A stretch of DNA of 55,597 bases from Bacteroidota bacterium (GTDB taxonomy: Bacteria > Bacteroidota > Bacteroidia > Flavobacteriales > Flavobacteriaceae). The position numbers and the translations under genes were made by a program. The notes below the pieces were generated by a model. It saw nothing but the letters and a program-made list of their open reading frames with translations. It did not search any database and was not told the origin of the DNA. Below are positions 43,073 to 45,754 of the stretch, one piece after another (within the stretch, counting starts at the first letter, position 1; each line of letters opens with the position of its first letter). The DNA lies in the NCBI GenBank assembly GCA_027593245.1, contig JAQCJC010000003.1, positions 1-55,597 of the forward strand, written 5' to 3'.

Positions 43073-44971
43073 ATGAGTGATGCAATCAAACACGAATGTG
43101 GCATAGCCCATGTTCGCCTTTTAAAGCCCTTAGATTTTTACAAAGAAAAGTATGGCACTGCTTTTTATGGGATAAACAAGATGTACCTGATCATGGAAAA
43201 GCAGCACAATAGAGGACAGGACGGTGCTGGTTTTGCAAGTATAAAATTGGACATGAGCCCTGGAGAGCGCTACATAAGCCGTGTGCGCTCTGTTACCCAA
43301 CAACCCATTCAAGATGTGTTTGAGCAAATCAACGAACGTATTAATACCGTCTTGGTGAATAACCCTGAATGCACTAATGACACCGCATTACAAAAGAGAA
43401 TGGTGCCCTACCTTGGGGAGGTCATGCTTGGCCATGTTCGCTATGGAACATTTGGGAAAAACAGTGTTGAAAGTGTACATCCGTTCCTGAGACAAAATAA
43501 CTGGATGCACCGCAACCTAATCTTAGCAGGAAATTTTAACATGACTAATGTTCGTCACTTGTTTAAGAATTTAGTAGAAATTGGCCAGCACCCAAAAGAG
43601 TACACAGATACGATTACAATCATGGAGCGTATTGGACATTTCTTGGATGATGCGGTTTCAAAAGTGTATAAAAAATTAAAAAAGGAAGGCTATACTAAAA
43701 TGGAATGTTCTCCTTTAATTGCTGAACGCCTAAATCTCAAGAAGATTTTAAAAAAATCTGCAAAAAATTGGGACGGAGGGTATGCAATGGCGGGTATGCT
43801 TGGCCACGGCGATTCATTTGTTTTACGCGATCCGGCTGGGATCCGCCCAGCGTATTACTACATGGATGATGAGGTAGTTGTTGTGGCTTCAGAACGACCG
43901 GTAATTCAAACCGTTTTTAATGTGGATTACCACTCTGTTCAAGAGCTACCTCCTGGACATGCTATTATCACCAAAAAATCTGGGGAAACCAAAATAAATA
44001 AAATTTTAGAACCCACAGAACGTAAGGCCTGTTCTTTTGAGCGGATTTATTTTTCGAGAGGTAGCGACGTTGAAATATATAAAGAACGAAAATTATTAGG
44101 AAAACTTATTGTTCCAGAAGTTTTGAAACATATCAATAATGATATTAAAAATACAGTTTTTTCATTCATACCTAATACTGCCGAAACCTCCTTTTTTGGT
44201 ATGGTTGAATCCGTTGAGGCATTTTTAAATAAAACAAAAACAGATGAAATTTTGGAGGGAAGACGCTCTTTGTCAGCAGAAAAAGTAACTCAAATTTTAT
44301 CGCAACATACAAGAATAGAAAAAATCGCAATTAAGGATGTAAAACTTAGAACCTTTATAACTGAAGACAGCAGTAGGGACGATTTGGTAGCACACGTATA
44401 TGACATTACATATGGCGTTGTAAAAAAAGAAGACAATTTAGTTATTATTGACGACAGCATCGTGCGCGGGACAACACTAAAGAAAAGTATATTAAAAATG
44501 TTGGACCGCCTATCCCCTAAAAAAATTGTAGTGGTGTCTTCAGCACCACAAATCCGCTACCCCGATTGCTACGGCATTGATATGGCAAATTTAGAAGGTT
44601 TGGTTGCGTTTAGAGCGGCACTAGCACTACTAAAAGACCACAAGCAAGATCAGCTCATTGATGATGTTTACGCCAAATGCAAGGCGCAAGAACATTTGAG
44701 TGACAGCGAGATAAAGAACTTTGTTAAAGAGATTTATTCACCATTTTCTGCAGATCAGATATCAAGCAAAATAGCTGATTTACTCAGCAGGGATGAGATA
44801 AATGCTGAGGTTGTAATCATTTTTCAAACCATTGAAAATTTACACAAGGCTTGCCCGGATAATTTAGGAGACTGGTATTTTACAGGAAATTACCCAACTG
44901 ACGGAGGAAATCGCGTAGTTAATCAAGCGTTTATAAATTTTTACGAAGGAAAAAATGAGCGCGCCTACTAA
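43073..44971 (+). CDS. Amidophosphoribosyltransferase-like protein (PurF paralogue, long form)
   Basis: HECGIAHVRLL with catalytic Cys near N-terminus, QHNRGQDGAGFA, PRPP-binding VIIDDSIVRGTT. Confidence 0.87.
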   Translation: MSDAIKHECGIAHVRLLKPLDFYKEKYGTAFYGINKMYLIMEKQHNRGQDGAGFASIKLDMSPGERYISRVRSVTQQPIQDVFEQINERINTVLVNNPECTNDTALQKRMVPYLGEVMLGHVRYGTFGKNSVESVHPFLRQNNWMHRNLILAGNFNMTNVRHLFKNLVEIGQHPKEYTDTITIMERIGHFLDDAVSKVYKKLKKEGYTKMECSPLIAERLNLKKILKKSAKNWDGGYAMAGMLGHGDSFVLRDPAGIRPAYYYMDDEVVVVASERPVIQTVFNVDYHSVQELPPGHAIITKKSGETKINKILEPTERKACSFERIYFSRGSDVEIYKERKLLGKLIVPEVLKHINNDIKNTVFSFIPNTAETSFFGMVESVEAFLNKTKTDEILEGRRSLSAEKVTQILSQHTRIEKIAIKDVKLRTFITEDSSRDDLVAHVYDITYGVVKKEDNLVIIDDSIVRGTTLKKSILKMLDRLSPKKIVVVSSAPQIRYPDCYGIDMANLEGLVAFRAALALLKDHKQDQLIDDVYAKCKAQEHLSDSEIKNFVKEIYSPFSADQISSKIADLLSRDEINAEVVIIFQTIENLHKACPDNLGDWYFTGNYPTDGGNRVVNQAFINFYEGKNERAY

Positions 44972-44975
44972 AAAA

Positions 44976-45014
44976 GTGCATTTCGTCTAAAAAAAGTGCA
45001 TTTCGTCTAAAAAA
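44976..45014 (+). repeat. Two perfect direct repeats GTGCATTTCGTCTAAAAAA with 20-bp period (44976-44994, 44996-45014)
   Basis: Read directly; noncoding, starts 4 bp after the PurF-like stop codon. Confidence 0.95.
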
Positions 45015-45038
45015 CAAAAAGGCTAATTAATTAAAGTA

Positions 45039-45046
45039 TATATTTG
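45039..45046 (+). promoter_or_regulatory. Putative -7 promoter box TATATTTG (TAnnTTTG) downstream of the direct repeats
   Basis: Exact match to Bacteroidota -7 consensus; no -33 TTG at usual spacing. Confidence 0.45.
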
Positions 45047-45052
45047 ATTCAC

Positions 45053-45122
45053 CATAACATAAGTAGGTTAAGTTCATGGTAGATTTGGGGCAAAAAAGGT
45101 GAACATCTGTTCACCTTTTTTA
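45053..45122 (+). ncRNA. Candidate short noncoding transcript (hypothetical)
   Basis: Bounded by the putative promoter box and a strong hairpin terminator; no convincing ORF; inference only. Confidence 0.25.
45093..45121. terminator. Bidirectional intrinsic terminator (AAAAAGGTGAAC-ATCT-GTTCACCTTTTT)
   Basis: 7-bp GC-containing stem flanked by A and T tracts between convergent PurF-like and sod genes. Confidence 0.88.
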
Positions 45123-45145
45123 TTTATACACGATATTTTGTGTGC

Positions 45146-45754
45146 TTATTTCGCTGCCGCAAAACGTTTTGCTACTTCATTCCAGTTGATTACATTAAAA
45201 AATGCATTGATATAGTCTGGACGTCTGTTTTGATAATTTAAGTAATAAGCATGTTCCCATACGTCAATACCTAAAATTGGAGCGCCGCCACATGATACAC
45301 CCGGCATGAGCGGGTTGTCTTGATTAGGCGTAGCACACACTTCCACTTTACCGCCTTTGTGGACGCAAAGCCAAGCCCATCCAGAGCCAAACTGTGTTGC
45401 AGCGGCATTTGAGAACGCAAACTTAAAGTCTTCAAAAGAACCATAAGCTTCTAGGATTGCATCTTTTAATTCTCCTGAAAGTTCGCCTTTATCAATTGGG
45501 CTCATTACCTCCCAAAATAAGCTGTGGTTATAAAATCCACCACCATTATTCCTAACCGCTTTGTTACTCATGTCCAAAGAGCTTAATATTGATTCAATAC
45601 TCTCGTTTTCTAATACTGTTCCTGAAATAGCAGCGTTTAATTTTGTGGTGTATCCGTTGTGATGCTTAGAGTGGTGGATTTCCATTGTTCTTGCATCAAT
45701 ATTTGGTTCTAATGCATCGTAAGCATAGTTTAATTTTGGTAATTCAAAAGCCAT
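45146..45754 (-). CDS. Superoxide dismutase (Fe/Mn family)
   Basis: [53 protein letters not shown]. Confidence 0.97.

Follow-up and report, generated by a model that had tools for sequence, protein, structure and literature searches.

What is encoded between two convergent genes of a marine flavobacterium, where a direct repeat, a promoter element and a terminator follow each other in this order? The window analysed here is a stretch of 55,597 nucleotides on contig C8 of an assembly of 2.02 Mb (142 contigs, 91% complete). The elements lie between a gene for a PurF-like amidotransferase (43073..44971, + strand), which is the conserved upstream neighbour, and the Fe/Mn superoxide dismutase gene sod (45146..45754, - strand), which is the convergent neighbour in the window's genus and in Flavobacterium swingsii. 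The nearest relative of the window's PurF-like protein is that of a genus mate (G006, 98% identity), and the PurF of Formosa sp. NAT248 is 100% identical to that of another genus mate (G002); the genus is Formosa-like and marine.

A sequence-only reading had proposed that this locus makes a regulated small RNA, and the elements on which it rested held. The direct repeat with a period of 20 bp has perfect copies at 44970-44989 and 44990-45009 (its 19-mer lies at 44976-44994 and again at 44996-45014), the box TATATTTG lies 24 bp 3' of the repeat at 45039-45046, no TTG is found at the -33 position in the window, and the terminator is a 14-bp perfect inverted repeat (45092-45121) with an A-tract and a T-tract. 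The proposed transcript of about 70 nt without a convincing reading frame also held, being predicted here at 71-75 nt with an internal frame that is not conserved. Its start, placed about 7 nt after the box, is corrected to 45051, five nt after the box, which slightly shifts the span of the repeats from -77 to -39 to about -75 to -37. The regulated small RNA is thus supported as a reading, with transcription and activation still inferred and no expression data.

The RNA gene and its conservation

Not every element is informative within the window. The box TATATTTG occurs four times against 4.2 expected by chance, so that the box alone carries no meaning. The 20-bp repeat has no second occurrence in the 2.02-Mb assembly, the seven other hits (two mismatches) being at the level of a reversed-pattern control. 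The fold of the RNA is 4.3 sd better than those of shuffled sequences, with the terminator contributing most. What places the element above chance is its conservation, the transcribed part hardly differing among dozens of genera. Orthologous intergenic regions keep the repeat and the -7 box at a conserved distance, keep the terminator as well, and agree most strongly in the transcribed body of the RNA. In the regions 3' of the orthologous PurF-like gene from 30 genomes, the block ACCATAACATAAGTAGGTTAAGTTCATGGTAGATTTGGGGCAAA was almost unchanged at 78% PurF identity, the surrounding intergenic sequence varied freely, and the terminator always came next.

A scan of bacterial genomes with the 23-nt core returned at least 115 stretches from Aquimarina, Winogradskyella, Algibacter, Salegentibacter, Christiangramia, Dokdonia, Flavobacterium (F. 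swingsii, F. luminosum and F. aciduliphilum) and other genera; all records naming a family or genus belong to the Flavobacteriaceae. Because these rows were fetched by the core itself, its conservation among them is partly a matter of selection, but the flanks ACCAT and TTTGGGGCAAA, which are outside the search pattern, are conserved equally with the core. Of 150 relatives searched with a covariance model, 75 were found to have the RNA, 74 of them in the window's family and one, a weak match, outside it; the model matched the window at 45050-45122 with 92.7 bits. From this match and the onset of conservation we place the RNA gene at 45051..45125 on the + strand, with a predicted start at 45051 and a length of about 71-75 nt (~72).

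The nearly invariant 5' hairpin and linker of the RNA, ACCATAACATAAGTAGGTTAAGTTYATGGTAGATTTGGGGCAAA, are followed directly by the intrinsic terminator. In the hairpin (45051..45080, + strand; ACCAUAAC paired with GUUCAUGGU, loop GUAGG) the sequence is nearly invariant; 99.6% of the alignment cells are paired, with only G-U changes and no compensatory ones, so that this stem is too invariant to receive support from covariation. The linker AGAUUUGGGGC (45081..45091, + strand) is unpaired and invariant. In the terminator stem (45092..45121, + strand), by contrast, 10 of 11 pairs changed on both sides (0 of 500 shuffles), and compensatory cells numbered 264 against 65 in shuffles and at most 63 in slid versions.

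A rival explanation, given as the alternative in the sequence-only reading, is that the locus is only a bidirectional terminator of the convergent purF and sod genes beside a chance TATATTTG. In its favour, the box is as frequent in the window as expected, and the palindromic terminator carries both an A-tract and a T-tract; the alternative is partly true in that this terminator may also serve sod. However, it leaves the invariant 5' block of the RNA unexplained, since conservation is highest in the ~40 nt between the box and the terminator, which also recur as tandem copies with promoters of their own. We regard it as virtually ruled out. Equally remote is a short peptide gene, MVDLGQKR, behind a regulated promoter. 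An ATG at 45075 does open an 8-codon frame with a stop in the window copy, but this frame is set by how long the A-run is, and in 121 of 178 variants it stays open through the end of the terminator, on which ground the candidate was rejected.

Tandem copies of the RNA are frequent, with two to six lying 3' of the same PurF-like gene. In many genera (for example L021, L098 and L150) these copies fall into recurrent types, GTTC with seven A and GTTT with five or six A, and it is possible that the first and the later copies have long been kept apart. In F. swingsii (L091, 1879-7930) the purF-like gene, two RNA copies, sod and a UvrD-like helicase gene stand in the same order as in the window, and a Flavo-1 RNA (RF01705) lies between sod and the helicase gene. 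In one other genome (G106:C88:35422-35517) a second match to the last 32 PurF-like residues is found just 3' of the gene, apparently a duplicated gene end.

The RNA belongs to no family that we could name. In the Rfam scan of the window locus the best hit was STnc40 at 28.3 bits against a cut-off of 45, and only sub-threshold terminator look-alikes were returned; the sole match in the relatives' loci was the separate Flavo-1. Nothing relevant to the repeat or core sequence was found in the literature, and viral contigs gave no match to the RNA. We conclude that 45051-45125 is a genuine, broadly conserved and unclassified non-coding RNA gene, with its transcription inferred. Its own sigma-A promoter, unconserved reading frame and intrinsic terminator meet the criteria that can be judged from sequence alone, the transcript itself being predicted.

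Promoter and operator

The -7 box of the window (45039..45046, + strand) is of the sigma-A type, TAnnTTTG, and stands without a -33 TTG. The sigma-A box of F. psychrophilum lies between -12 and -5 (PMC9723704); a box so placed would put +1 at 45051, and this is also the first base of the conserved block. Among 190 non-redundant promoters collected for an iterative motif search, TAnnTTnG was found at the box position in 156, mostly at one position, and the full TAnnTTTG in 87; a TTG 18-22 nt 5' of the box was rare (27 of 190).

Upstream of the RNA lie tandem half-sites, GCATTTCRTCTAA, with a period of 20-21 bp. The window's repeat is GTGCATTTCGT, two copies 20 bp apart; within it we assign by motif a distal LytTR half-site GCATTTCGTC at 44978..44987 (+ strand, about -73 to -64), which matches the YpdB site, and 20 bp after it a proximal one, again GCATTTCGTC, at 44998..45007 (+ strand, about -53 to -44). 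There are no binding data for either. The motif obtained from the 190 promoters is G[CT][AC][TG]TT[CT][AG]TCTAA, and at least one half-site is present in 177 of them, with peaks 63-66 and 83-86 nt 5' of the core, that is, at about -53 and about -73 from the start. In 105 pairs the half-sites were 20 or 21 bp apart, and shuffled sequences gave about 0 such pairs. The site recognised by LytTR regulators consists of two 9-11-nt direct repeats with 11-13 nt between them, and E. coli YpdB, a member of this class, binds GGCATTTCAT twice, 21 bp from start to start, as monomers (PMC4847170); the spacing expected of a LytTR operator is therefore met by the RNA promoters.

The lack of a -33 element and the putative activator sites just upstream give this promoter the look of an activated one, activation itself being an inference. 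In all 10 RNA-bearing genomes of the genus, a relaxed form of the tandem operator was found once per genome and always at the RNA promoter. Since this is the only detectable tandem operator in the genus, the output of the regulator would be essentially this RNA.

An orphan LytTR regulator and its co-occurrence with the RNA

The activator had been pictured only as something bound as tandem monomers; there is now a strong candidate, a single orphan LytTR response regulator, still without binding data. The window's genome has one LytTR protein (G000:C14:8182-8898), encoded between priA and rpsF, with a receiver domain (PF00072) and a LytTR domain (PF04397). No kinase gene was seen beside it in the 3.3 kb read, so the regulator is an orphan. 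The single-contig, 99% complete genome of G006 likewise has exactly one LytTR protein. Genus mates have one or two, and seven of the nine having any have one; none was found in G005, which is 73% complete and in which the PurF match is missing as well.

Of the 74 genomes of the family that carry the RNA, 72 have the orthologue, against none of the 17 that lack it (Fisher, 1.5e-16; 3e-11 among genomes with any LytTR protein). RNA-lacking genomes such as G012, G013, G026, G035, G043 and G057 carry 6-16 other LytTR genes each, which links the RNA to the priA-rpsF orthologue and not to LytTR proteins generally. The orthologues of G030, G053 and G063 are only 38-42% identical, and their orthology was confirmed by the order priA-lytTR-rpsF. 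In six genomes (G014, G051, G062, G074, G077 and G075) priA and rpsF abut and lytTR is missing; the RNA is gone in five of these and diverged in G075. When RNA-lacking family genomes were searched 3' of purF with filters off, no convincing diverged RNA was found except the one kept by G075 (59 bits, L326:132-199); G057 gave a weak match resembling a relic (E 0.024, L317:1342-1386, minus strand), which is possibly due to chance.

On a PurF tree the RNA state changes nine times, at least six of these being forced by well-supported branches, and the regulator eight times; six independent pairs gave on average 5.5 changes in the same way and 0 in the opposite (p about 0.03). The tree was a quick one, with several RNA-lacking genomes on long branches. 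The simplest history that we infer is one origin inside the family followed by repeated joint loss of RNA and regulator. There are exceptions: G075 has its diverged RNA without any LytTR protein, G089 (81% complete) has the RNA and no clear orthologue, and some genomes of related families (G091, G117) have a homologue of the regulator with no RNA detected.

Another factor might bind the operator, with the co-occurrence of the LytTR protein arising from shared ancestry and genome reduction. It is true that RNA and regulator both cluster on the tree, and that many RNA-lacking genomes are small or long-branched. On the other hand, the RNA is missing from family genomes that lack the orthologue but possess 6-16 other LytTR genes, the operator matches in sequence and spacing a site at which LytTR binding has been demonstrated, and several of the losses are clean deletions of a single gene. 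We consider this rival unlikely, and the orphan LytTR protein to be the strongly supported regulator of the RNA; this too is an inference, binding and activation being unproven.

The regulator of the window's genus has an altered receiver. In all 10 genus orthologues (G000 L252/L277; L278-L286) the acceptor Asp is replaced by Glu (Glu55; LIFLE[IV]). In those of which the N-terminal motif was read, Pro or Ser stands in place of the second pocket Asp. The 20 orthologues examined outside the genus have the canonical VVDD and LIFLDIEMP, with the Asp kept. A conserved phospho-acceptor Asp is thus not a property of the window's genus. In YpdB, Asp-to-Glu at the same position makes the protein constitutively active, mimicking phosphorylation (PMC4847170), and by analogy the genus regulator may no longer need to be phosphorylated.

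Proposed circuit and known systems

Taken together, we propose a LytTR-activated, -7-box promoter driving a trans-acting RNA of ~72 nt. We hold this as likely overall: conservation of the RNA, covariation of the terminator, the anatomy of the promoter, uniqueness of the operator in the genus and joint presence and loss are shown, and transcription, binding, activation rather than repression, and the RNA's mode of action are inferred. In this view, the orphan regulator encoded between priA and rpsF would occupy, as tandem monomers, the two GCATTTCRTC half-sites between -73 and -44 and recruit sigma-A RNA polymerase to a promoter having only the -7 box; transcription would stop at the intrinsic terminator, and the resulting RNA would act in trans, most likely by pairing through the unpaired linker AGAUUUGGGGC and the hairpin loop with partners not yet identified. 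The linker is the obvious candidate seed by inference, and no conserved target was found for it. Across 11 genus genomes, no match to its complement CCCCAAATCT near a start codon was conserved in several of them, and none fell in a 5'UTR of the window's genome; in all, the complement matched 66 times in the 11 genomes, the RNA gene excluded, against 25 for a reversed control. Two matches are leads only, not being conserved in other genus genomes: a 14-nt perfect complement of the linker 5' of a SusC-like gene (G008, L458) and a 10-nt complement just before mscL (G006, L444).

A serious rival keeps the same RNA and promoter and supposes that the RNA titrates an RNA-binding protein, as RsmY/Z and CsrB do, with tandem copies raising the dose. 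It is favoured by the ~40 nearly invariant nt, which include the hairpin and its loop, by the two to six near-identical tandem copies in many genomes, and by the absence of a conserved mRNA complement. Against it, a single RNA contains no repeated binding motif, unlike CsrB and RsmZ (by inspection, the 72-nt RNA has no repeated GGA motif, so it does not meet the criterion for a Gac/Rsm titrating RNA), no candidate protein has been identified, and the search for mRNA targets was narrow. Titration remains possible; we prefer an RNA that pairs with its targets.

A bolder reading of the LytTR-activated RNA, against which we lean slightly, is that of an ancient, family-wide master switch of the Flavobacteriaceae. 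The orphan LytTR protein would have the RNA as its sole output in a Gac/Rsm-like global circuit, in bacteria presumed to have no CsrA and mostly no Hfq, and in the window's genus it would be locked in a phosphomimetic state by the Asp-to-Glu change, with control moved to another input.

The Flavobacteriaceae are major marine degraders of polysaccharides and include fish pathogens, and their post-transcriptional regulation is almost unexplored. Here an RNA family and its likely regulator can be identified as a pair, along with a short operator, in genera some of whose species can be cultured, and this offers a way into RNA regulation in a large bacterial group that is still poorly understood. 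Their tight joint loss leads to directly testable predictions, and in the window's genus, where a single promoter makes up the entire predicted regulon, the role of the RNA presents an unusually clean case.

Two other flavobacterial RNAs are worth comparing. Rfp18 of F. psychrophilum is a small RNA conserved in flavobacteria that affects protease mRNAs; at least three stem-loops are described, and it pairs through the third (PMC9723704), whereas the window RNA has one hairpin and a terminator. Only described structures were compared, and identity with any Rfp RNA is neither shown nor excluded. Flavo-1 is also a short flavobacterial RNA of similar length, but it occupies a separate locus and strand without useful similarity, and the window locus does not match it. 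Response regulators that drive RNAs are known elsewhere. VirR of Clostridium perfringens is a LytTR regulator driving a regulatory RNA, VR-RNA, which is longer, is one of several VirR targets and is unrelated to the flavobacterial RNA. In Pseudomonas, GacA is a response regulator driving the small RNA promoters of RsmY/Z (PMC4866733). For regulators of this type, small RNA promoters are apparently the main direct output, and the RNA has multiple copies. The circuit proposed here shares with it the small RNA output of a response regulator and the several RNA copies, but its regulator is an orphan of the LytTR class in Bacteroidota, and its RNA is unrelated in sequence to RsmY/Z. YpdB, for its part, works with a partner kinase and switches on a protein gene, while here the regulator has no neighbouring kinase gene and its predicted target is an RNA gene; the likeness to its target promoter PyhjX lies in the tandem direct repeat 5' of an activated promoter, with the half-site GCATTTCRTCTAA matching GGCATTTCAT.
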